Source: Streptomyces dengpaensis (GTDB lineage Bacteria > Actinomycetota > Actinomycetes > Streptomycetales > Streptomycetaceae). Taken from it: 64,000 nt of DNA. Below, piece after piece: positions 3,311 through 14,170 of this stretch. Location: positions 1,922,001-1,986,000 of the forward strand of contig NZ_CP026652.1 of the NCBI RefSeq assembly GCF_002946835.1, read 5' to 3'. The notes below the pieces were generated by a model. The model saw only the letters and a list, made by a program, of their open reading frames with translations, ran no database searches and was not told the origin of the DNA. A program made the translations under genes and the position numbers. Within the stretch, counting starts at the first letter, position 1, and each line of letters opens with the position of its first letter.

Positions 3311-3820
3311 TCAGTGGTCCGCGCAGCACGGCGTCGGGTCCGGCACCTCGAACGGGACCAGCGTCCCGCCCGCCGCGGGCATGGCGGTCAGCACGAGTGC
3401 GCCGTCCTGCCACTGAGGTCGCACATGATCCTGCGTCACGAGGCGTGCGTCGGAGGCGGATTGGCCCGCCGTGCCCAGGATCGTCACACGGTCGATCGCG
3501 GAGCGGGCGAGCACCTCCGCGACGGTCAGGGTGCCCGTGAGCGACGAGACGCCCGGGTAGAGCACGGCGCGCCCTACGGCGTCCGGGGCTCCCTCCGTGA
3601 CGTCGTACCCGTGGACGGTGAGCCGCTCCCAGGCGGTGCGTGGGAGCGGCTCCGAGGGGAGCGTGAAGGACAGTGCGACGTGCGGCCGTTCGCCACGCAC
3701 CAGGTGTGTGCATCCGAACGTGCCCTCGGGGAGGGCGAGTTCAGCCGCCAGCGTCTGGAGGAGGTGATCGGCCGCGCGCAGGTTCGCGCTCCCTGCGTCC
3801 ACCGTGACCACGTACGGCAT
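3311..3820 (-). CDS. protein of unknown function coupled to PHP phosphoesterase
   Basis: Encodes 169 residues starting MPYVVTVDAGSANLRAADH. Its ATG overlaps the TGA of the upstream phosphoesterase gene (TGATG), a strong sign of translational coupling and shared function. No signal peptide or membrane segment is seen. The tail ends PDPTPCCADH, so a Cys-Cys-x-x-His cluster could bind metal. I do not recognise the family. Confidence 0.6.
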   Translation of the reverse strand: MPYVVTVDAGSANLRAADHLLQTLAAELALPEGTFGCTHLVRGERPHVALSFTLPSEPLPRTAWERLTVHGYDVTEGAPDAVGRAVLYPGVSSLTGTLTVAEVLARSAIDRVTILGTAGQSASDARLVTQDHVRPQWQDGALVLTAMPAAGGTLVPFEVPDPTPCCADH

Positions 3821-5526
3821 CACGCGGGCAGGACCCACACGGGGTTGGAGTAGAACCACAGGTCACGCCACGGGTCCGCGTCTCCGACGACGTCGATGGC
3901 CGGGCCCGCCGGGTCGACCGCCGAGCCCATCAGGCCGACGGCGGAGCGGTTGCCGTCGGTGCCGCGCAGACGGACGTACACCGGGCGGTCGACCGCACCG
4001 AGGTCGTACGTGAGGCGCACCGTGCCGGTCGACTTGTTCACCTCGTACGACCGGACGACCTTCGCCGTGGGAGCGGCCATCGTGTCCCGGTCCGAGGCCG
4101 CGCCCGTCACGTCACCCTGGATGACGTCGACACGCGCCACCTTCGGTACGAAGCCTGCCCAGTTGGGGCCGCCCGCCAGCCCCAGGTCCACCGTCAGCGT
4201 GACCCGCGTGCCCTTCTTCACGTGCAGCGCCCCGCCGAGCGTGGCCCAGCGGCCGCCGCCCGCCACCCGGGCGTCGAGACCGCTGATGAGCTGCCCGTGG
4301 TCGACCCACACGCGCCCGGCGCGGATGCCGTCCATCACGGCCGCGTACGAGAATCCGTCGGCGCCGACGTGCGTACGGCTGTACTGGCCGGGCCAGTAGT
4401 CGCCCTGCGCGAGGTCGACCTTGCCGCCGTAGACCGGGTCGGTGTGCTTGCCGTTGGCGGTGAAGTCGGTGTCCGGGCCACCGCGTACGGCGGTGTCCGT
4501 GTACACCTGGTGGGAGTCGGAATTGGCGGTGATCCACCAGGGCTTGCCCTCGGCGAGGAGGCTGTCCCACAGGCCGCCGACGGTGGCGGTCATCCAGTCG
4601 AAGCCGCCCCAGGTGCGGTAGCTCTCCAGCGGGTAACCGGCGAAGGAGTTGGCGCTCGGGTTGTTGTCGTAGATGCCACGGGCCCGGCCCATGCCGAGCG
4701 GCGCGGCGATGCCGGCCGCCTGGTGGCCCGGTGCGCCTTCGAAGCCGACGGCTATCTGGCGGCTCGCGCCGTTCGCGTCACGCCAGCCGCGGATCTCGTG
4801 CGGCGAGTCGACACCGCGCCGCGCCGGGTGGTTGGCGAGCATCAGGGCGTCCTTGACCTTGCGCCGTTCGACCTGCTCGCCAAGGAAGGCGAGCCCCGCG
4901 ATGGCCAGCGCCTCGTTGGCGGGCGTCGAGTCGGAGGCGCCCTTCACGCTGCCGTCGTAGTCGGTCTCGAACTGCTTGAGGACGGAGACCTCGTTCTTGC
5001 CGGGGTGGACGAAGACCGTGCCGTGCTCGGCGGCCGGGATGTTCCACTCCAGGCCCTGGAAGACGAGCGTGTCCTCGTACGCCGCCCGGGCCTCCTGGAT
5101 GTCCGGGTTGACCTTCTCCACACCGATCTTGGCGTGCGTGGTGCTTCCGTGGTCGGTGATGACCATCCAGTCCATGCCGTGCCGTGCGCCCTGGCGGACC
5201 TGGTCGCCGACGCGGTACTTGCCGTCGCTGCTGTACTGGGTGTGGATGTGGTGGTCACCGGCCAGCCAGAGGAAGCCGTTCGTCCTGCGGCCGCCGCTCG
5301 TGGTCGCGTATGCCGGGGCGGCGGCCCCCTGCGCGAGGACGCTGCCGGCAGCCAGGCCCGCGCCGAGCAGACCCGCGCGACGCAGCAGCGAACGGCGCGA
5401 CTGCTGGTCGGGGGTCAGCTCCTCGTCCGGCACGGACGTGTCGAAGGCGGCGGGCAGCGGGGCACCCGAGTCGCCGTGGTGGTGATGATGGTGATGCCCA
5501 TCCTCGTGTCCGTGCGTGTGCCCCAT
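3820..5526 (-). CDS. exported PHP-domain metal-dependent phosphoesterase with His-rich N-terminus
   Basis: Encodes 568 residues. The ATG at 5526 follows an excellent ribosome site (AGGAGG). The N-terminus is MGHTHGHEDGH followed by seven consecutive histidines, then a Tat motif (SRRSLLRRAG) with a hydrophobic stretch ending in AQGAAAPAYA. The PHP signature follows: LAGDHHIHTQYSSDGKY, then GMDWMVITDHGS, LEWNIPAAEHGTVFVHP and ANHPARRG, which supply the His/Asp metal ligands. The family hydrolyses phosphoesters using three metals. Its exact substrate is not predictable. The His-rich lead before the Tat motif may carry metal ions into the folded enzyme before export (inference). Confidence 0.85.
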   Translation of the reverse strand: MGHTHGHEDGHHHHHHHGDSGAPLPAAFDTSVPDEELTPDQQSRRSLLRRAGLLGAGLAAGSVLAQGAAAPAYATTSGGRRTNGFLWLAGDHHIHTQYSSDGKYRVGDQVRQGARHGMDWMVITDHGSTTHAKIGVEKVNPDIQEARAAYEDTLVFQGLEWNIPAAEHGTVFVHPGKNEVSVLKQFETDYDGSVKGASDSTPANEALAIAGLAFLGEQVERRKVKDALMLANHPARRGVDSPHEIRGWRDANGASRQIAVGFEGAPGHQAAGIAAPLGMGRARGIYDNNPSANSFAGYPLESYRTWGGFDWMTATVGGLWDSLLAEGKPWWITANSDSHQVYTDTAVRGGPDTDFTANGKHTDPVYGGKVDLAQGDYWPGQYSRTHVGADGFSYAAVMDGIRAGRVWVDHGQLISGLDARVAGGGRWATLGGALHVKKGTRVTLTVDLGLAGGPNWAGFVPKVARVDVIQGDVTGAASDRDTMAAPTAKVVRSYEVNKSTGTVRLTYDLGAVDRPVYVRLRGTDGNRSAVGLMGSAVDPAGPAIDVVGDADPWRDLWFYSNPVWVLPA

Positions 5527-5665
5527 GACCGCCTCCTGAGTCCCGCGCCGCCCCTTCGGGCGCGTGTCAGGAGGAGATTCGATGCGAAACATGAACACTG
5601 AACGGCCTCTGCGAGATCAGCGGGCGGCCCGGACGGGGCCAACTGGCCTCGCTCACCCAACTCCC

Positions 5666-5947
5666 TCACGCGCCTGCCCGTTGCACCCGGATTTCCGCCC
5701 AGACGACCTTGTACGGCGCGCCCGGCCGAGGCTCGACTCCCCACCGCTCGGCGACCGCCGCGACGAGCAGCAGCCCCCGCCCGCCCTCGCCCTCGCCCTC
5801 GTCGGTCGGCTCCCGCAGTACGGGCAGCCGGTCCGTCCGCCCGTCGGCCACCTCCACGCGTACGACGCCGTCGCGCAGCACCAGCCGTACGCGGAAGTCA
5901 CGCCCGCGCACGTGCCCGTACCGCACCGCGTTGGCGACCGCCGTGGC
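5666..5947 (-). pseudogene. RsbW-like ATPase, 5'-truncated remnant
   Basis: About 93 codons remain: ATAVANAVRYG (the N-box asparagine region of the ATPase), VRLVLRDGVVRVEVADG, then GRGLLLVAAVAERWG and YKVVWAEI. This is the second half of an anti-sigma-type ATP-binding protein. Homology stops at the N box near 5947. Two bases later, on the opposite strand, the remnant of a TetR gene begins. Both genes therefore lost their 5' halves at the same point. Confidence 0.75.
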
Positions 5948-5948
5948 G

Positions 5949-6236
5949 GGACGGGCGGGCAAGGAGGCGCTGGTCGCGTTCGCGGACGCGTATCGCGCGT
6001 ACGCGCTGGAGCGGCCGGGACGGTATCGCGCCACGCACACACAGCCCGACCCCGCCCTCGTCGCCGAGTCGAGCACGTACCGGCGCACCACCGAGGTCAC
6101 GTACGGCATGCTCCGCGCGTACGGGCTGTCCGAGCCCGACCTCACCGACGCCGTACGCCTGCTGCGCTGCACCTTCCACGGCTACTGCACCCTCGAAGCC
6201 ATCGGCGGATTCGGCGCCCCCCGCGACGTACAGGCG
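5949..6236 (+). pseudogene. TetR-family regulator, C-terminal (WHG-type) remnant
   Basis: The frame reads KEALVAFADAYRAYALERPGRYRATH, continues with TYGMLRAYGLSEPDLTDAV and ends LLRCTFHGYCTLEAIGGFGAPRD when read with its intervening residues. This is the ligand-binding C-terminal domain of the common TetR subgroup ending in HGF.SLEA.GGF. The DNA-binding N-terminal third is absent, and so is the usual closing helix. It is arranged divergently from, and touching, the ATPase remnant at 5666-5947. Confidence 0.7.
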
Positions 6237-6272
6237 GGCCGAACACTTCGGCGCCTGCCGAAGTGTTCGGCC
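6237..6272 (-). terminator. perfect 16-bp terminator hairpin
   Basis: GGCCGAACACTTCGGC at 6237-6252 and its exact complement GCCGAAGTGTTCGGCC at 6257-6272 leave a four-base loop. It begins 7 bases beyond the stop codon of the last gene of the long minus-strand operon (6279-12776) and marks the operon's end. Confidence 0.8.
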
Positions 6273-6278
6273 GCCGAT

Positions 6279-7103
6279 TCACCGGACGAGCCCCGTCGCG
6301 TAGGGCAGCGCCCAGAGCAGCGGATACGTCCCCAGGAAGCTCCAGATGAACGAGGGCAGTCCCATGACGAGGGCTATCGACAGGTGGAAGAGGATGCCGG
6401 AGGCGATCAGTACGACGAGGGCCGGGGCGGTGAGTGCGGTGAGGGCGAACAGGACCGGTGCGCCCAGCTCGAAGGCGATGGTCGCCCAGCAGGCCGCCGC
6501 GGAAATGAGCGGCACCGACAGCAGCTCCCGGGCGCCCCGTACTCCGTATCCCTGGGTGCGGACGATCAGGGCGACGGCCCTGCCCGAACGCCAGGTGGGA
6601 GAGGCCGCCTTGGCGACCCCGGCCACGATGTAGGACAGCAACAGCTGCGCCACCACGAAGCTCACGGCGGCCAGGCGGACGCGTTCGTCGTCCGTGAGGG
6701 AGTAGACGAACAGCCCCGCCCACAACACGGTCTGCATCTGGTCGGCGCCGTCCATGCCCACCAGGAAGCGGAGGTGCAGCATCAGATGGACGGTGAGGAC
6801 GAAGAGTCCGCAGGCCGCCGCGAGGGGGGCGGCCGTGGTGATCGCCAGCGGATATCCGACCGCCGCCACGGCGTGCGCCGCGACCAGCAGGGGCACGGTC
6901 CGCCGCGAACCGAACACCGCGCGGAAGACGGCACGGGTTCGTGGCCGGTGCGCGAGGATGTAGTAACGCGTCTCGATGAGCGGCCAGTTGAACGCGCGGT
7001 CCAGCACGAACCGTCTGCCGGCCAGCAGTTCACCCGTCTCGATGACCATCCCCGTCGCGGCCAGGGCCGAGGACAGTACCACCGCCGACTCAAGGCCGTT
7101 CAC
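6279..7103 (-). CDS. HTTM-type integral membrane protein (copy 1)
   Basis: Encodes 274 residues with about seven hydrophobic helices. The segment YIVAGVAKAASPTWRSGRAV is the diagnostic stretch of the HTTM (horizontally transferred transmembrane) domain, related to the membrane part of vitamin-K-dependent gamma-carboxylase. The GTG start overlaps the TGA of the DUF5819-like gene (GTGA), so the two are translationally coupled. It is a shorter paralogue of the protein at 9081-10139. Whether it is an enzyme is not known. A carboxylase-like role is inference only. Confidence 0.75.
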   Translation of the reverse strand: MNGLESAVVLSSALAATGMVIETGELLAGRRFVLDRAFNWPLIETRYYILAHRPRTRAVFRAVFGSRRTVPLLVAAHAVAAVGYPLAITTAAPLAAACGLFVLTVHLMLHLRFLVGMDGADQMQTVLWAGLFVYSLTDDERVRLAAVSFVVAQLLLSYIVAGVAKAASPTWRSGRAVALIVRTQGYGVRGARELLSVPLISAAACWATIAFELGAPVLFALTALTAPALVVLIASGILFHLSIALVMGLPSFIWSFLGTYPLLWALPYATGLVR

Positions 7104-7642
7104 GGTTCGTCCTGTTCATGGAAGGCCGACAGGAGGTAGATGTCGGGCTCGCCGAACGCGGCCGGGCCACGGGTGCGGGCCACGGCGAACTGCCGGTGTG
7201 TGGTCTCCGGCAGCGCGGGCTCGGAGGTCACGAGGTTGAGGGCGTAGAGGTACGGGAAGCTCAGTACCCGGCTGGGGTGCACGGTGTGGCCGTGCTCGGT
7301 GGCGCGGCTGTCCCAGTCGAAGCGCGTGAGGTCGTGGGCGACGTCGCTGAGGGCCTTGCTCACCCGCCGGTGAGGGAGCCACAGGTGAAGGACGTGGCGC
7401 CGGCGTTCGATCACGACTTCGTGCCACGGCCCCACGTTTCCGTGCCGGTCCAGGTCCCGGTAGAGGAGATGCAGGTCGGTGTCGCCCGGGTTCGGCGCGA
7501 AGAAGGTCCAGATGGGTACGAGGCCGAGAATGTCGTAGCCCACGATGGACCTGATGGGGCGGCGGGTGCGGTCGGCCTGGTTGAGGACGGTCAGGGCGAG
7601 CCACAGGGAGAACACCGTGGCGACGATGAGCAGCACAGTCAT
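7100..7642 (-). CDS. DUF5819-like partner of HTTM protein (copy 1)
   Basis: Encodes 180 residues. The ATG at 7642 lies behind GGAGGAAAGGG, and a GTG seven codons upstream is possible. It has one N-terminal membrane helix (MTVLLIVATVFSLWLALTV), then the marker segment IWTFFAPNPGDTDLHLLYRD, followed by a soluble domain ending in AFHEQDEP. Proteins with FFAPxPG after one helix are normally encoded beside HTTM genes and are catalogued, as I recall, as DUF5819. It overlaps the following HTTM gene by four bases. Confidence 0.7.
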   Translation of the reverse strand: MTVLLIVATVFSLWLALTVLNQADRTRRPIRSIVGYDILGLVPIWTFFAPNPGDTDLHLLYRDLDRHGNVGPWHEVVIERRRHVLHLWLPHRRVSKALSDVAHDLTRFDWDSRATEHGHTVHPSRVLSFPYLYALNLVTSEPALPETTHRQFAVARTRGPAAFGEPDIYLLSAFHEQDEP

Positions 7643-7701
7643 GGGACGGTCCCTTTCCTCCACCGTGGATCACTGGTGCTCCACCATGTGGGTCGCTGGT
7701 G

Positions 7702-9084
7702 CTACGGCATCCCGATCCGGACGAACTCACTGCGCAGGCGCAGCAGGGTCTTGGCCGAGGCGGTGGGTTCCAGGGCGTCGAAGTCGATGTCCGCCAAGCG
7801 GCGCTGGAACGCGTCCCTGTCGAACGGCATTCCGCGTGCCTCGTCGAAGATGCGGACCTCGTGCCGCGGCTCCTCCGTGTAAATGAGCCCACGCTGTTCC
7901 TGGATCAGCCGCCCCTGGCGTTCCCGCTCCTGTTCCCGGCGCTGGCGCTGCCGTTCCTGCTCCTGCTGCTGACGCTGCCGATCGCGTTCCTGCTGGTGCT
8001 GTTGGTTGATCCGCTCGTTCTCCTGTTGGTGTCGTTGCCGCTGCTGCTCCTGCTCCCGTTGCTGATCGGCCTGCTGCTGTTGCTGCTCCTGCTGATGCCG
8101 GTCCTGTTGCGCCTGCCGCTCGCGTGCGTCCATGACCCGCTGGTTCTCCTGGTCCTGCTGCTGGCGCAGTTGGTCGCGCTCACGCTGCTGGCGCTGCTGG
8201 ATGTCCTGGTTCTCCTGGTCCTGGCGTTGCTCGATCTGCTGTTGTTCGCGGTCCTGCCGGTGGTCGACCGTCTCGCGCTCACGCGCCTGCGCGTTGTCGA
8301 TGTCCTGCCGTTCGCGCCGCTGCCGGTCGTCGATCTCGCGCTGCCGCTGCTGTTTCTGATCCTGCTGGTCCTGGCCCTTGTCCCGGTTGAAGAGCCAGTC
8401 GAAGATCCGTTGGGCGATTTGGTCCAGGCCCGCGTTGCCGATTCTGCGCAGGGTGTAGGTCACCGCGGGCCATGCGAGAACGGGTGACTGGACATGGAGC
8501 TGACTGACATGGCCGGGTACGCGCTCCAGCACGGCCCGTTCCAGGTCGGACAAGGCGGGGTGGACGAGCATGACGGTCACGGAGGGCATCGGCTGGTCCA
8601 CGTCCAGGACGTGTTCGACGCAGCGGAAGGCGGCCGGGTCGAGCGTTCCGCCGTTCCAGAGCGTCCTGGCCACCGAAGCGTCGACACCGGGCAGCAGGGC
8701 GACACCCCGCACCAGCGTGGTGCCGTCGTACGTGAGGTCCAGCAGCGACGGCAGGTCCTCGATCCGCGACACCGCTCCGGGCGCCTCCGGGTACAGCGTG
8801 CGGGCGAACTGGGCGGAGAAGGTCTCCAGCAGCGACCGGAGTTGACCGAGGTCGGCGTGGGCCATGTCGGGCACCTGGTCCGCCAGGGGGGAGCCGGGCA
8901 GTCCGACGACGGTGGTGATCGTTCCTTCGACCAGGGCCGAGAGGTCCGACCGGCCGGGCTCGACGTGCACGATGACCGGTTCGAGGAGCCGTGCCGAGCG
9001 GTCCCGCATCGCGCGGGCGAGCGCCACGTCGACATCGTCCGGCCGAGCCGGACTGCGGTCGTGGGGGAATGCGCGATCGTTCAT
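7702..9084 (-). CDS. protein with long Gln/Arg/Glu-rich low-complexity coiled coil
   Basis: Encodes 460 residues in three parts. Residues 1-235 form a mixed alpha/beta region I do not recognise (VIVHVEPGRSDLSALVEG, VTVMLVHPALSDLERAVLE). About residues 236-395 consist almost only of Gln, Arg, Glu, Asp and a few His/Asn (for example QQEQQQQQADQQREQEQQRQ), which should form a long charged helix. About 65 C-terminal residues return to normal composition. The ATG overlaps the stop of the upstream HTTM gene (ATGA). There is no signal peptide, so it should be cytoplasmic. It lies between the two HTTM/DUF5819-like pairs, and its role is unknown. Confidence 0.75.
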   Translation of the reverse strand: MNDRAFPHDRSPARPDDVDVALARAMRDRSARLLEPVIVHVEPGRSDLSALVEGTITTVVGLPGSPLADQVPDMAHADLGQLRSLLETFSAQFARTLYPEAPGAVSRIEDLPSLLDLTYDGTTLVRGVALLPGVDASVARTLWNGGTLDPAAFRCVEHVLDVDQPMPSVTVMLVHPALSDLERAVLERVPGHVSQLHVQSPVLAWPAVTYTLRRIGNAGLDQIAQRIFDWLFNRDKGQDQQDQKQQRQREIDDRQRRERQDIDNAQARERETVDHRQDREQQQIEQRQDQENQDIQQRQQRERDQLRQQQDQENQRVMDARERQAQQDRHQQEQQQQQADQQREQEQQRQRHQQENERINQQHQQERDRQRQQQEQERQRQRREQERERQGRLIQEQRGLIYTEEPRHEVRIFDEARGMPFDRDAFQRRLADIDFDALEPTASAKTLLRLRSEFVRIGMP

Positions 9085-10139
9085 GTCCTCTCCTCAACAG
9101 GCAGGGGCGGGGTCGGCCGTTGGCGGCCGGGGATGCGTGGGGCCGGGCGGAGGGGTCGTACGCGGGTGGGGCTCCGGTGCTTCGGCGTGCCGCGTCGTGT
9201 GACGTCAGCGGAGGACAGCGCGCGATGCCCCAGCCAGAACCAGAGCCCGCACAGCCCAGCCGCCAAAGGCAGGACGAGAAACAGCAGTTGGCCCGCATGC
9301 GCGTATGCCGTGGCACGGAGCTCGGGTATGGCGAGCGCGGCGGGGTAGAGCGCGGGAAACGCCCACAGGAAGGTGTTCAGCCCCATCAGCCGCGCGCAGC
9401 CCACATGGAACAGCAGGCCGCACGCGAGGAATGGCGGAATCAGCACTCCGGGCAGGAACCAGATTGCGCCGAGGGCGAGTTCGCCGAGGATGACCGTCCA
9501 GGCCAGCAGGGAAGCCGCCAAGGAGTGCCGCGCCAAGATCCGGGCGAGCCGGGGATCACCGTAGATCGTCGTGCGCAGGATGCCGACGACGGCGTAACCA
9601 CTGCGCCAGGTGGCGGACTGCGCCTTCGACAGACCCGCCGTGGCGTAGCCGATCGTCAGCTGGAGGGAGAGGAAGGCCAGACACGCGGTCGCCGCGACCC
9701 GGCTGCCGGGTTGGTAGCCGATCGCCGCGGCCACCAGCACGATCACGATCAGCTCGTCGGCCCCGTCGCTGGACCAGCGGTCCCGGGTCATCTCCGCGAC
9801 GTGCAGGACGGCCACGCACAGGGCCACCGGCCACAGCCGGGGCCATACGAAGAGGGCCGCGGACAAGACGCTCTGCGCCCACAGGAGCAGCTGGTAACGC
9901 GGGTGGACGAAGCAGTGGTTCGCCAGCACCGCCGGGAACGAGCGGCGTACATAGCGCGGCACGAGACGCAGGATCTCCCAGTCCAGCCATCCGCCAGGGG
10001 CGAGTTGGCGCCGCGAGGTGAGCAGTTCCGCGCACGAGACCAGGGAGGCCCCGGCCGCGAGCCGGACCACGAGGTCGAGCGTGCCCAGTGCGCCCAGCGC
10101 GTCCAGAGGAGCGGGCGTCGCCACCCATGCGTACGTCAC
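9081..10139 (-). CDS. HTTM-type integral membrane protein (copy 2)
   Basis: Encodes 352 residues from a GTG that overlaps the preceding stop (GTGA). It contains about seven to eight membrane helices. The HTTM marker is IGYATAGLSKAQSATWRSGY, with RDRWSSDGADEL earlier (copy 1 has FLVGMDGADQMQ at the equivalent place). The basic, proline-rich tail (RRGTPKHRSPTRVRPLRP) is absent from copy 1. It is coupled on both sides: DUF5819-like gene upstream, coiled-coil gene downstream. Confidence 0.75.
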   Translation of the reverse strand: MTYAWVATPAPLDALGALGTLDLVVRLAAGASLVSCAELLTSRRQLAPGGWLDWEILRLVPRYVRRSFPAVLANHCFVHPRYQLLLWAQSVLSAALFVWPRLWPVALCVAVLHVAEMTRDRWSSDGADELIVIVLVAAAIGYQPGSRVAATACLAFLSLQLTIGYATAGLSKAQSATWRSGYAVVGILRTTIYGDPRLARILARHSLAASLLAWTVILGELALGAIWFLPGVLIPPFLACGLLFHVGCARLMGLNTFLWAFPALYPAALAIPELRATAYAHAGQLLFLVLPLAAGLCGLWFWLGHRALSSADVTRRGTPKHRSPTRVRPLRPAPRIPGRQRPTPPLPVEERT

Positions 10140-10693
10140 GACTCCTCCTCTGCTGGGTCCAGCCGGTGCACCGCCGAGACGAAGACCTCCCGTCGGACCG
10201 CGTACGTCCCGCGGGTCCGCACCTCCAGGCAGCGGAACTGCGCGGCGACCGCCTCAGGGTGTGGCCGGTTCTCGACCGCGCGCAGGATGAGGATGTACGG
10301 GGTGGAGAGCAGCACGCTCGCGCGGGCGCGCCCCGCCGGGGCGGACGTGCGGTGCGCGGATTCCAGGTACACGGCGAGCAACTGGCCGACGGCGACGAAG
10401 AACGCCTTCTTCTCGCGGCGGTTCGGGTTCCAGAACATGTGCCACCAGCGCCGGGACTCGGTGACCGGGAAAGGGCGCCAAGGGCCCGGCCTCATGCCGG
10501 GCAGGAAGTCGCGGTACTCCAACTCGTAGTCCCGCATGATGGGTTCGGGCGCGAAGAAGTTGTAGCGCGGCAGCAGGGAGAAGAGGTCGGCGGCCCGGAC
10601 GACCTGGAATCCGGCGCGGCGCACCTGGGCGAGCAGGGTGGCGGACAGCCACGTCCCGAAGACGACGAGGACCACCGCGTCGCCCGCGCTCAC
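10136..10693 (-). CDS. DUF5819-like partner of HTTM protein (copy 2)
   Basis: Encodes 185 residues from a GTG overlapping the stop of the repeat-protein gene. One N-terminal helix (AVVLVVFGTWLSATLLAQV) is followed by LLPRYNFFAPEPIMRDYELE, the same marker as in the copy at 7100-7642, and a soluble domain with a Trp-rich stretch (WRPFPVTESRRWWHMFWNP). The order of partner gene then HTTM gene is identical in both copies, so the pair was duplicated as a unit or acquired twice. Confidence 0.7.
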   Translation of the reverse strand: MSAGDAVVLVVFGTWLSATLLAQVRRAGFQVVRAADLFSLLPRYNFFAPEPIMRDYELEYRDFLPGMRPGPWRPFPVTESRRWWHMFWNPNRREKKAFFVAVGQLLAVYLESAHRTSAPAGRARASVLLSTPYILILRAVENRPHPEAVAAQFRCLEVRTRGTYAVRREVFVSAVHRLDPAEEES

Positions 10694-11793
10694 CGGTCCT
10701 CCTCTTCCCGGCGCGCTTCCCTGCGCAGAGCCTCCTGGTTCCGGGCTTCCCGGTTCAGGGCCTCGCGCCGCAGGGCAGCCAGAGTCTCGGCGGACGGCGC
10801 CGGCTCGTCCGTATCGGACAGCGCGGACTCGGTCCGTCCCTCGTCCTCGCTCTCGTCCTCGCCGTCGCCCGCGTTCTCGTCCTCGCCCTCGGACAGACCC
10901 CGGGAGTCGATGCTCGGGCCCTCCCAGCGCAGGCTTCGAGGGTGCGGCCCCGGGCCCCCTGCCCCTTGGCCGTCGCCGTCGCCGTCAACGTCTCCGTTGC
11001 CGTCGGCTCCGTCGTCCCCCTCGACTCCCCGCTCTCCGCGCACACCGAGGTGGCCGCGGACACCGAAGACGCCGAGGACCGCACGTACGCCCTCGACCCC
11101 GAGAACGGCGCGTACGCCCACGACGCCCCGTACGCCTTCCACGCCACGGATTCCGCGAGCGCCCCCCTCCACGCCCTGAATCGCCTCGTCTCCCACCACT
11201 CCGCGCACGCCCCGTATCCCCAGGACTCCGCGCTCCCCACGCACCCCGCCCACGCCGCGCGCCCCGCTCACCCCGTCGATACCGCGGACTCCGCCCACGC
11301 CTAGTACCGCGCGTACGCCTTCGACCCCGCGAACGGCGCGTATGCCCAGGATTCCTCGCACTCCCTCGATGCCGAGTACGGCTCCGGCACCGCGGATCCC
11401 GCGCACACCCCGTACGTCGATACCGTCGACGCCATCGTCCCCCGTCACGCCACTGATCCCGGTGACCCCACCGACGCCGCGCAGGGCTCCCGCACCGCGG
11501 ATCCCGCGCACACCCCGTACGTCGATACCGTCGGCGCCATCGTCCCCCGTCACGCCACTGATCCCGGTAACCCCACCGACGCCGCGTACGGCTCCGGCAC
11601 CCCGGATCCCCCGCACGCCTTCGACATCAATGCCGTCATCCCCGGTGACGCCCCTGATCCCCGCGATTCCGCCGACGCCGCGCACGGCTCCCGCACCCCG
11701 GATCCCGCGCACACCTTCCACGTCGATGCCATCGCCCAGGGCCGCGAAGCCACGGTCGCTGTCGCTGTCGCTGTCCGGTTCCCGATCGGTCAT
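10690..11793 (-). CDS. Arg-Gly-rich (V/I-x-G)n repeat protein
   Basis: Encodes 367 residues. The ATG at 11793 sits 6 bases behind AAGGAG. After an acidic start (MTDREPDSDSDSDRG), residues about 20-240 are triplets of the form V/I-x-Gly, such as GVRGIRGAGAVRGVGG, organised at first in 35-residue units. RG dipeptides recur about four times per unit and proline is absent, so it is not ordinary collagen. The C-terminal third is very acidic (EGEDENAGDGEDESEDEG) and then a charged helix (REALNREARNQEALRREA). There is no signal peptide. RG repeats are the usual targets of type I arginine methyltransferases, and the gene just upstream encodes such an enzyme, so this is its candidate substrate. Confidence 0.8.
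   Translation of the reverse strand: MTDREPDSDSDSDRGFAALGDGIDVEGVRGIRGAGAVRGVGGIAGIRGVTGDDGIDVEGVRGIRGAGAVRGVGGVTGISGVTGDDGADGIDVRGVRGIRGAGALRGVGGVTGISGVTGDDGVDGIDVRGVRGIRGAGAVLGIEGVRGILGIRAVRGVEGVRAVLGVGGVRGIDGVSGARGVGGVRGERGVLGIRGVRGVVGDEAIQGVEGGARGIRGVEGVRGVVGVRAVLGVEGVRAVLGVFGVRGHLGVRGERGVEGDDGADGNGDVDGDGDGQGAGGPGPHPRSLRWEGPSIDSRGLSEGEDENAGDGEDESEDEGRTESALSDTDEPAPSAETLAALRREALNREARNQEALRREARREEEDR
11411..11760. repeat. 105-bp in-frame tandem repeats
   Basis: The block 11411-11515 recurs at 11516-11620 with few changes, then in slightly shorter degenerate copies to about 11760. Each full unit encodes 35 residues of the Arg-Gly repeat protein on the minus strand. The near-identity of the first copies points to recent expansion by unequal recombination. 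Confidence 0.85.
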
Positions 11794-11837
11794 GCGGCGC
11801 TCCTTCGGCATCGCCGTACGGCGTTGTGCGCAGTGCG

Positions 11838-12776
11838 CTACCAGCGGGCGGAGCGGGAGTCGTGGTGCTCTGCCCCGCCCCCTGCGACCGATACGGACCA
11901 ACTGCCCTCGCACCAGCCGGGTCTGAACAGTTCGAGTTCCAGCTGCACGTCGATGGAACAGCCGCGCTCGATGGGTACGGGGCGGGTCAGCGGGAACACG
12001 CAACGCCCCCAGTGCGTACGGGAGTTGGGCGCGTTGTCCACCCGCGTCCCCGGCGCCAAGGTGGCCGAGAACCACGCGGCGCAGCAGTTCATGTATCCCG
12101 TTTGGTTCGCCCGGAAGGATGTCGACGCCTTGAACGGGCCTTCGGCGTCCGCCCGGTCGTGACGCGCCGCGTCGATCGTCCACACGGGCACGCCAGCCGC
12201 CCGCAGATCGTGCGCCCGGACGTGGTGGCTGCCCCGGAAGAACTCCTCAGCCGTGAACTCCGCGACCGCGCCGAGGTCGAGCCCGTACGGCCAGCCGGAG
12301 AAGAAATGCACCTCCCGGTTAAGGGCTTCGTCCCAGGCCGGTGCGAGCATGACCTCGACCGACGCGGGCACCATCGCTCCCCCTGGCTTCAGCCAACGGT
12401 CCCGGGCCAGCAGCACGGGAGCCAGCATGTGCTCGTCGACAGCGGCGCCCCCCATCCATTCGGACACGATCACATCCACGGTCTCCGGCAGATCGGCCGC
12501 CTCGACATCGCATTCGAGGACGTCGATGCGGTCCGCCGCACCGTTGGCCTCGATCAACGTCCGTGCCATGGCCGCGATGCGGGTGCGCTCGACCGCGTAG
12601 ACCCGCCGCGCTCCCGCCTCCACGGCGAAGAGGCTCAGTATCCCTGTCCCCGCCCCCACATCCAGGACCGTGTCTCCCGGACGTACGACGCTGCGCATCG
12701 CCTGCCGAAATGCCTCGCAGCGATCAACGTCGAGCAAAAGGGGCCGATGAGCCAATATCCCCCCATAACCGCCCAT
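11838..12776 (-). CDS. protein arginine methyltransferase-like enzyme (PRMT family)
   Basis: Encodes 312 residues from an ATG behind GAGGGGA. It has the whole PRMT layout. YGGILAHRPLLLD (residues 4-16) matches the N-terminal helix. LDVGAGTGILS (38-48) is the SAM-binding motif I, with acidic E63 after VYAVE. The double-E loop is SEWMGGAAVDEHM, with E106 and E115 at the canonical spacing of nine. The THW loop appears as SRTHWGRCVFPL (252-263). These residues are what separate protein-arginine methyltransferases from other class I methyltransferases. True PRMTs are uncommon in bacteria. The downstream neighbour encodes an RG-repeat protein, the likely substrate. Confidence 0.8.
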   Translation of the reverse strand: MGGYGGILAHRPLLLDVDRCEAFRQAMRSVVRPGDTVLDVGAGTGILSLFAVEAGARRVYAVERTRIAAMARTLIEANGAADRIDVLECDVEAADLPETVDVIVSEWMGGAAVDEHMLAPVLLARDRWLKPGGAMVPASVEVMLAPAWDEALNREVHFFSGWPYGLDLGAVAEFTAEEFFRGSHHVRAHDLRAAGVPVWTIDAARHDRADAEGPFKASTSFRANQTGYMNCCAAWFSATLAPGTRVDNAPNSRTHWGRCVFPLTRPVPIERGCSIDVQLELELFRPGWCEGSWSVSVAGGGAEHHDSRSARW

Positions 12777-12815
12777 CCATCCGTCCCCTCAGGAACGCCG
12801 TATTCCGCATAAAGA

Positions 12816-13084
12816 TCACCATTTGGGCATTATAGGCGGCAGTTGAGCACATGGGGAGAGCAGACCGAGGAACCGGCCCAGGAGGACCGCGGTGTCGTCG
12901 GGCCACCGCCAGACGCCGTCCTCCTGACTGCGCAGAGTCTCCGTATCGCGTCCCCCAGTTTCTCCTCGCACGCTTCCGCGCCCCGCGCACCGTCAGCCAG
13001 GACACCGGCGGCGCGGCGCAGCGCCAGCACGGCACGGGCCGTGTGCACCGCCGACTTGGCAGGCCCGTTCAGATGCTCGCTCCA
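12816..13084 (-). pseudogene. frameshifted gene remnant
   Basis: A coding-like segment runs from WSEHLNGPAKSAVHTARAVL through ACEEKLGDAIR in one frame. It continues in another frame as TLRSQEDGVWRWPDDTAVLL and ends with a TGA at 12816-12818. An in-frame TAG directly precedes the first Trp. So the 5' part is lost and there is at least one frameshift. Family not recognised. Confidence 0.45.
12829..12834 (-). promoter_or_regulatory. candidate -10 box of the methyltransferase operon
   Basis: Read on the minus strand this is TATAAT, a perfect -10 hexamer in DNA otherwise poor in A/T, 52 bases before the methyltransferase ATG. No convincing -35 box is visible at 16-18 bases. It is the only promoter-like site I see for the long operon ending at 6279. 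Confidence 0.45.
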
Positions 13085-13231
13085 CTAGGTCAGCGGGCCC
13101 GACTCGTGGTCCTCCCGGTGCGCGACGCCTCGGGCTCATGGCCGATCTGCGGTGCGGTTCCGGTCGCGTACCCGGGGAGCGGCCGGTTCCGGTCGCGTAC
13201 CCGGGGCCCCCGGTTCCTCCCCCGTATCGAC

Positions 13232-13237
13232 TAGCGT
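13232..13237 (+). promoter_or_regulatory. candidate leaderless -10 box for the homocysteine methyltransferase gene
   Basis: TAGCGT lies exactly six bases before the ATG at 13244, the spacing expected when transcription starts at the A of ATG. No clear Shine-Dalgarno sequence is present, which fits leaderless translation. Confidence 0.4.
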
Positions 13238-13243
13238 CATGGC

Positions 13244-14170
13244 ATGAAGAGCAACGCCTCCCTCACCCTCGCCGAAGCCCTCTCCGCTGGTGCGGTCGTC
13301 CTCGACGGGGGTATGTCCAACCAGCTCGAATCGGCCGGGCACGACCTGAGTGACGAGTTGTGGTCGGCGCGGCTGCTTGCGGAGCGGCCCGAGGCGATTG
13401 TCGAGGCGCATCTCGGCTACTTCGAGGCGGGCGCCGATGTGGCGATCACGGCCAGCTATCAGGCGACCTTCGGGGGCTTCGCCCGGCGCGGGATCTCGCA
13501 CAAGGAGGCGGCCGGGCTGCTCGCGCTCAGCGTCGAGCTGGCGCGCGAGGCCGCTCGGCGCGCGCACGCGAAGGGTGTCGCGCGGCCGCTGTGGGTGGCC
13601 GCGTCGGCCGGACCGTACGGGGCGATGCTCGCGGACGGGTCGGAGTACCGGGGGCGGTACGGGCTGAGCGTCGAGGAGCTGGAGCGGTTCCACCGGCCGC
13701 GCCTGGAGGTGCTGGCCGCCGCCGCGCCCGACGTGCTGGCCCTGGAGACCGTGCCGGACGCCGACGAGGCGCGGGCACTGCTGCGGGCCGTACGCGGCCT
13801 CGGCGTCCCGGCGTGGCTGTCGTACAGCGTCGCCGGCGACCGTACGCGGGCCGGGCAGCCCCTGGAAGAGGCGTTCGCCCTGGCCGCCGGTGCGGAGGAG
13901 ATCATCGCCGTCGGCGTGAACTGCTGCGCCCCGCAGGACGTGGACGGCGCGATCGCGACCGCCGCGCGCGTGACCGGGAAGCCGGTCGTGGTCTACCCGA
14001 ACAGCGGCGAGACGTGGGACGCCCGGGCCCGCACCTGGACCGGCCGCTCCACCTTCACGAACGAGCAGGTCAGGGGCTGGCAGCGGGCGGGAGCCCGACT
14101 CGTCGGCGGGTGCTGCCGGGTGGGGCCCGAGGCGATCGCCGGGATCGCGGAGACGCTGAGGTCCGCGTAG
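13244..14170 (+). CDS. mmuM: homocysteine S-methyltransferase
   Basis: Encodes 308 residues, the usual length for MmuM. It transfers a methyl group from S-methylmethionine (or SAM) to homocysteine, giving methionine in the cytoplasm. The (beta/alpha)8 barrel starts with VVLDGGMSNQLE. The substrate strand is TASYQATFGGFARRGI. Zinc ligands are the Cys of GVNCCAP and the Cys pair of LVGGCCRVGP near the C-terminus. It stands alone. The upstream TAGCGT hexamer suggests a leaderless mRNA. Confidence 0.93.
   Translation: MKSNASLTLAEALSAGAVVLDGGMSNQLESAGHDLSDELWSARLLAERPEAIVEAHLGYFEAGADVAITASYQATFGGFARRGISHKEAAGLLALSVELAREAARRAHAKGVARPLWVAASAGPYGAMLADGSEYRGRYGLSVEELERFHRPRLEVLAAAAPDVLALETVPDADEARALLRAVRGLGVPAWLSYSVAGDRTRAGQPLEEAFALAAGAEEIIAVGVNCCAPQDVDGAIATAARVTGKPVVVYPNSGETWDARARTWTGRSTFTNEQVRGWQRAGARLVGGCCRVGPEAIAGIAETLRSA

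Follow-up and report, generated by a model that had tools for sequence, protein, structure and literature searches.

In a 64,000-nucleotide stretch of the Streptomyces dengpaensis genome (8.71 Mb in three contigs; contig NZ_CP026652.1, positions 1,922,001 to 1,986,000; hereafter the window), a gene for an enzyme with the fold and motifs of a protein arginine methyltransferase (PRMT) heads a series of seven close-packed minus-strand genes that runs from position 12776 to 6279, and the gene that follows it encodes a protein rich in Arg-Gly (RG) dipeptides. The series is best read as a single seven-gene operon resembling those for ribosomally synthesized and post-translationally modified peptides (RiPPs). 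After the PRMT gene come two cassettes, each with genes for an X protein, a CypL-like protein, and a membrane protein like the N-terminal part of CypH (CypH(N)). We define these X-CypL-CypH(N) cassettes here, with the X protein as the product of the gene directly before the CypL-like gene that carries a shared C-terminal tag. By gene position and tag, the RG-repeat protein is the X protein of cassette 1 and a Gln/Arg-rich protein is that of cassette 2. An initial annotation of this DNA had paired the enzyme with the repeat protein but overlooked that the latter is the X protein of a linaridin-related cassette. We propose, tentatively and with slightly less than even confidence, that the tagged cargo goes to the membrane pair for maturation or export and that the PRMT methylates this cargo.

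Successive genes in the operon are separated, in order from the PRMT gene, by 44, −4, −4, −4, 38, and −4 bp. The initial annotation had placed the enzyme and repeat genes in one operon 44 bases apart, and the gap (11794-11837) and shared strand are as described there. The RG gene begins with an ATG at 11793, has its own ribosome site (AAGGAG) six bases upstream, and overlaps CypL-like gene 1 by 4 bp at its stop. The open reading frame (ORF) listed at 10690-12183 is too long, and the actual gene is 10690-11793.

The PRMT-type fold and motifs of the window enzyme are well supported. The enzyme matches PRMT6 with an E-value of 1.5e-46 (162.5 bits), and the alignment contains the S-adenosylmethionine (SAM)-binding motif I (VLDVGAGTGI) and the post-I acid (YAVE). 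Both glutamates of the double-E loop, E106 and E115 (SEWMGGAAVDEHML), align with PRMT6, and the THW loop is formed by T254-H255-W256, so that the alignment confirms the catalytic residues named in the initial annotation. Residues E106, W107, E115, H255, and W256 are invariant among 24 aligned sequences, including that of the window, most of which were retrieved with patterns containing the double-E stretch. The C-terminal barrel and oligomerisation subdomain is also present (PRMT_C, Pfam PF22528, E 1.6e-9), and the predicted model, with a predicted local distance difference test (pLDDT) score of 92.5 and aligned over residues 1-311, has PRMTs as its best listed structural matches (Foldseek, VIA). 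The closest known enzymes are the type I PRMTs (PRMT6, PRMT2, PRMT1, PRMT8, and CARM1), from which the window enzyme differs by its bacterial operon context, a YFxxY helix motif that lacks its first half, and a substrate that is a candidate only.

Enzymes related to the window PRMT also occur in loci of a different kind. Two of these (L027 and L029; loci retrieved in this study carry an L number) look like thioamitide clusters, with YcaO genes and precursor-like genes whose products we take to be of thioamitide type, and the L028 enzyme aligns with those of L027 and L029. In the thioamitide cluster described in PMC8153245, TsaG is needed for histidine bis-N-methylation. The L027-L029 enzymes, which are among the best in-genus homologues of the window PRMT, would be counterparts of TsaG, and by this analogy the PRMT-like fold in Streptomyces is probably used on histidine too. 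The window enzyme could be a PRMT fold that acts, like TsaG, on a non-arginine residue or on a small molecule. The thioamitide-type homologues are 34-35% identical to it (for the cluster type, PMC8153245), and the substrate of TsaG is likewise a peptide encoded in its own operon. However, TsaG modifies histidine and not arginine, and its likely counterparts lack the canonical double-E and have SHW in place of THW, whereas the window enzyme has both the double-E and THW. The window enzyme also scores higher with PRMT6 (162.5 bits) than with its best homologue in the genus (127.9 bits). We consider a non-arginine target very unlikely.

The repeat protein contains 30 RG dipeptides (28 within residues 20-280), and [VI]-x-G triplets occur 58 times when overlaps are counted, in agreement with the dozens of RG in V/I-x-G triplets reported initially. 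Shuffling the protein 2000 times gave a mean of 12.3 RG and a maximum of 22. This excess is largely a consequence of the V/I-x-G period, and the specific feature of the protein is instead the arginine found at 28 of the 87 pre-glycine positions of the repeat region. Lysine and cysteine are absent from the protein, and proline is absent from residues 20-280. The first three 33-codon repeat copies differ at 8, 2, and 39 sites in codon positions 1, 2, and 3, respectively, the codon differences being synonymous in 31 cases and non-synonymous in 10, which indicates that the RG frame is real and under constraint.

With glycine at each third residue, the RG protein resembles bacterial collagen-like proteins such as Lcl and Scl, and it might be a surface or structural protein of collagen-like or solenoid type, in which the arginines provide charge or binding and stay unmethylated throughout. 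The whole protein reaches 54 bits with Pfam Collagen and 71 bits with a collagen-like adhesin model (cut-off 500), and its longest glycine-every-third run comprises 13 triplets. However, no single stretch passes Pfam Collagen alone, the triplets are interrupted by phase breaks, and residues 20-280 are free of proline; a collagen identity, which depends on the whole-protein scores alone, was rejected. The protein also has V or I in the X place of the triplet, a C-terminal tag, and no signal peptide that could be seen by eye, and its single-sequence model (pLDDT 55.8) shows strands between residues 16 and 186 with no match in the PDB below E 0.001. A search with the repeat protein at E 1e-10 gave matches in 25 of 294 other genus genomes. 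The 13 regions retrieved from these were rejected as a second enzyme-repeat pair: ten encode GPQG-/GxQG-type collagen-like proteins and three other Gly-rich ORFs (L250, L253, and L258), and none of the 13 contains a PRMT or membrane-pair match, which further separates the window protein from this group. Among the 12 matching genomes that were not retrieved, the match is broken by in-frame stops in 11. No match was found among plasmids by tblastn with the low-complexity filter on, and the genus genomes, plasmids, and loci searched hold no further copy of the repeat protein. A structural protein that is never methylated is thus an improbable explanation.

The C-terminal tag of the repeat protein (SAETLAALRREAL) is common to X genes of other actinobacteria, the like tails being SAKTLLRLRSEF, SAETLAALRREAL, SVEELVAARRRLM, SVSELLRARSAAL, and SLEGLLRLRSAIL, among others. 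The X proteins of related loci are 75 to 460 residues long (longest ORFs). Their bodies are diverse by eye, except for a domain common to the Gln/Arg protein, four others, and one from Rhodococcus, and none of ten other X proteins scanned reached a Pfam cut-off. A 15-column matrix of the tag, derived from 11 X proteins outside the window, gives 21.8 bits for the RG protein and 19.8 bits for the Gln/Arg protein, compared with 11.2 bits for the best of 1492 background genes; none of these genes, and none of 5000 tail shuffles for each protein, reaches the window scores. On leave-one-out, five of the 11 X proteins beat all background. The matrix loci (7 of 27 genus and 4 of 17 class loci) were chosen by visual inspection and gene position, in part once the likeness of the tails had been seen. 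Another five loci in which CypL precedes CypH (L085, L088, L095, L136, and L261) were excluded; the upstream ORF is hydrolase-like by eye in four of them, with the upstream gene of L261 excepted. The matrix replaced an earlier count of the tag (14 of 1366 background genes), for which the pattern had been read from the same sequences and the background may have included X genes. A held-out X protein from a Rhodococcus plasmid cassette (WP_168581036.1, annotated ‘hypothetical protein’) scores 19.3 bits against a maximum of 11.1 bits among 1357 background genes, although it is itself related to the Gln/Arg protein (E 4.9e-8). At four other plasmid loci, two of them linaridin-like by an annotated hydrolase, no ORF had a tag score of at least 9. 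We found no name for the X-CypL-CypH(N) family with its C-terminal tag in the literature searched.

Sequence comparison relates the membrane pair of the window to CypL and CypH, the linaridin proteins that mature cypemycin. Profiles of the X-cassette proteins score 87 bits (A1, CypL-like) and 140 bits (A2, CypH-like) against the CypL- and CypH-position proteins of locus L102, respectively. L102 (5452-9364) is a cypemycin-type linaridin cluster in a genome of the window's genus, and by its C-terminal sequence we take its precursor ORF to be of cypemycin type. The CypL-position protein of L139 is a close neighbour of that of L102 in the CypL tree. Both loci contain weak PRMT matches (5e-7 in L102 and 1e-7 in L139), and the match in L102 was rejected as a window-type PRMT because it reads as the CypM-type enzyme of the cluster. 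In the CypL tree of 51 rows, a branch with support 86/79 separates the 14 CypL-like proteins of X cassettes from the rest; long-branch warnings apply, and the two copies from the window are placed apart in a weakly resolved region. Among nine CypL-like proteins, four show a marginal match to DUF5819 (best E 0.017), and all six SdpB-like proteins scanned weakly match TIGR04033 (SdpB).

Linaridin clusters (cypemycin and grisemycin; CypH, CypL, and CypM) share with the window operon a CypL-like and CypH(N)-like pair and a methyltransferase in the operon. In contrast, the window operon has no alpha/beta hydrolase, the corresponding half being absent from its CypH-like proteins; its gene order is reversed, a PRMT replaces CypM, and the place of a short PVMATPA-type precursor is taken by a cargo protein of 367 or 460 residues that carries a C-terminal tag. 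No ORF of 35-130 residues with a PVMATPA-type motif was found near the best CypH-like gene (window positions 5001-13500). The corynaridin cluster is described as resembling others in that it encodes both an HTTM protein and a hydrolase of the alpha/beta type (PMC9927463), cypH and cypL homologues are reported from two Brevibacterium strains (PMC5719810), and cypemycin is described as methylated by CypM, with grmL as a possible epimerase gene (PMC10373908). Short precursor-like ORFs with PVMATPA or PIMATPA lie near CypH-/CypL-like genes at L081, L082, L084, L092, L100, L101, L132, L138, and L262, which look like linaridin clusters; L262 is an S. globosus plasmid, and the small genes at this site are annotated as hypothetical proteins. 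The SdpABC system of Bacillus subtilis also combines an SdpB-like membrane protein, a small partner, and a linked protein for maturation, and processing of SdpC is reported to need SdpA and SdpB (PMC6818787). However, the SdpB score in the window is far under the cut-off, and no SdpA or SdpC family match is listed there.

Together, these features suggest how the operon could work. The tag would bring the X protein to the CypL-/CypH(N)-like membrane pair, which would mature it, export it, or both, by analogy with the action of SdpA/SdpB on SdpC and of CypH/CypL on cypemycin. The PRMT would act on the cargo of its own operon, as linaridin-cluster methyltransferases do, and could mono- or dimethylate the V/I-R-G arginines before the membrane-pair step. 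It might also modify the Gln/Arg protein, in which an insert of ~170 residues (35% Gln, 21% Arg), absent from four aligned related X proteins, could be a second PRMT target. We favor this proposal because the genes are close and on the same strand, the tag is shared, and the catalytic residues of the PRMT are intact, and because the repeat protein has arginine at so many pre-glycine sites and no lysine at all. Methylation of the RG-repeat arginines by the PRMT, drawn as it is from a single locus, is plausible but not established, a nearly balanced call that falls on the doubtful side.

The window PRMT is not a common Streptomyces gene. In the genus sample, 20 of 295 genomes besides that of the window match it at E 1e-15 (best 1.6e-36, 35% identity); in the phylum sample, 9 of 396 do so at 1e-20, two of them at 45% identity over the full length, and none of 119 relatives has a match at E 1e-40. 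A contig scan for the SEW...DE type of PRMT yielded 55 loci in many bacterial phyla, including Poribacteria, Verrucomicrobia, Myxococcales, Cyanobacteria, and Planctomycetes. These loci were picked with patterns containing the double-E stretch, which is present in them by construction; THW occurs in 49, SHW in one, and neither in five. The initial annotation had called such enzymes rare in bacteria, but the type occurs in many phyla. For comparison of neighbourhoods, we assembled 85 other PRMT loci from 20 of 24 genus matches, all ten phylum matches (one a contig-edge fragment), and the 55 scanned loci. Flanks are at most 6 kb at many of these; among the scanned loci 28 have at least 12.5 kb and the shortest has 4.2 kb. 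Within these flanks, none of the 85 loci has a V/I-R-G repeat gene or a same-strand membrane pair beside the PRMT gene, and a PRMT of the window type is absent from all 12 other X-CypL-CypH(N) loci compared. The operon pairing of enzyme and repeat protein is real in this genome, but co-occurrence, the check suggested for a dedicated enzyme-substrate pair, lends that claim no support.

Several observations weigh against methylation and maturation of the cargo as proposed. A PRMT and an X cassette occur together at the window locus only, among 85 PRMT and 12 X loci compared, and the nearest relatives of the window PRMT (45% identity, L151 and L152) sit near unrelated genes. Type I PRMTs are expected to carry a full YFxxY motif on the first helix; the window enzyme starts with MGGYGG and keeps the last tyrosine (Y4) alone. 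PRMTs typically target RGG, which is absent from the repeat protein. The RG sites also have hydrophobic flanks, and arginine is only in slight excess (11.6% with the last 22 residues excluded, compared with 9.1% over 59 predicted window genes). Membrane protein 1 matches TIGR04033 at E 1.4e-6, with 28.2 bits against a cut-off of 178.4, and none of the CypL-like proteins is found by any NCBIfam model for SdpA. On leave-one-out of the tag matrix, between 1 and 8 background genes score at least as high as each of five X proteins, and that of L129 fails, with 473 of 1492 background genes scoring as high.

These neighbourhoods make it a serious possibility, although one we doubt, that the PRMT is a stand-alone bacterial enzyme that methylates other cellular proteins and not the RG protein, and a neighbour of the X cassettes by chance or for shared transcription. 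All 55 SEW...DE-type loci have flanks without a V/I-R-G repeat gene or membrane pair, and all 12 other X cassettes do without a window-type PRMT. However, in the window the genes form a tight operon on one strand, with a 44-bp gap and a ribosome site of the RG gene's own, both X proteins of the operon have expanded low-complexity RG or QR stretches, and the Gln/Arg insert is missing from the four X proteins aligned with the Gln/Arg protein. A near miss was seen at L044, where an SdpB-like gene lies ~2.5 kb from a divergent PRMT-like gene on the opposite strand. In this part of L044 (10764-13954), the SdpB-like gene comes after a gene for an ice-binding-like protein that contains Gly-Thr and Gly-Pro repeats (NCBIfam IBP_CFB, E 8.7e-29), and between the two lies a small ORF in which an FAPDP stretch is visible by eye. 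At L035, a marginal CypL-profile match (E 8e-4) in a doubtful frame lies 5 kb from the PRMT gene. A density of 6-8 RG in 60 residues is common to many GC-rich off-frame ORFs, and an L166 ORF with 9 RG in 60 was rejected as an RG-repeat gene because its codon make-up reads as off-frame. No ORF at the 85 PRMT loci reaches the combination found in the window protein, 9 RG in 60 residues with glycine in 14 of 15 triplets.

The proposed pairing of PRMT and tagged cargo provides a concrete candidate substrate for a PRMT-type enzyme in bacteria, and the comparison brings to light the X-CypL-CypH(N) cassette family with its C-terminal tag. By the count of a 2022 review, PRMT activity had been shown for one bacterial effector (PMC10117894). 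Rv1988 and predicted Legionella PRMTs are likewise bacterial enzymes described as arginine methyltransferases, but they are described as acting, or as candidates to act, on the host (PMC10117894), and the likeness is one of description only. If the proposal is true, linaridin-type maturation would reach beyond short peptides to whole proteins and would gain arginine methylation. In an extended form, which we think unlikely, the operon would represent a large-cargo linaridin-type branch in which full-length tagged repeat proteins are multiply modified by the CypL/CypH(N)-like pair, for example by Val/Ile epimerisation as proposed for grmL, and in this operon also by a dedicated PRMT on V/I-R-G. 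The operon would then yield a giant ribosomal product that carries many modifications, and a bacterial PRMT would serve as one of its tailoring enzymes.

Table 1. Genes and repeats of the minus-strand operon, in window coordinates.
Feature	Position	Strand	Basis
PRMT-family methyltransferase, 312 aa, operon gene 1	11838..12776	−	PRMT6 match, PRMT_C Pfam, predicted model
V/I-x-G (RG) repeat protein, 367 aa, cassette-1 X; tag residues 332-346 APSAETLAALRREAL	10690..11793	−	
Tandem 96-105-bp units within RG gene	11367..11733	−	Tandem Repeats Finder; copies conserved as protein
CypL/SdpA-position protein 1; N-terminal hydrophobic stretch, FFAPxP motif	10136..10693	−	Alignment A1
CypH N-terminal / SdpB-like (HTTM) membrane protein 1	9081..10139	−	TIGR04033 below cut-off; profile A2
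Cassette-2 X protein (Gln/Arg-rich), 460 aa; C-terminal tag TASAKTLLRLRSEFV	7702..9084	−	
CypL/SdpA-position protein 2	7100..7663	−	
CypH N-terminal / SdpB-like (HTTM) membrane protein 2	6279..7103	−	

The window genome has a second, weak PRMT match (L103, E 1.3e-4). At other PRMT loci, proteins with SHOCT-like endings (by eye) are encoded beside the PRMT genes of L151 (7541-7885) and L153 (5316-6551), and another at 1399-1677 of L155, which holds a PRMT fragment. At L043, a GYGGGG-repeat ORF of 213 residues with 2 RG (9966-10607, minus strand) lies at a distance of 1.4 kb from, and on the opposite strand to, a PRMT-like gene. Downstream of the window operon, at 3820-5598 on the minus strand, is a CehA/McbA-type metallohydrolase match (63.7 bits, cut-off 80) with a His-rich N-terminus. 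Divergent from the PRMT gene lies a homocysteine S-methyltransferase gene (13244-14170, plus strand; NCBIfam E 1.2e-116), which is possibly linked to the SAM cycle.

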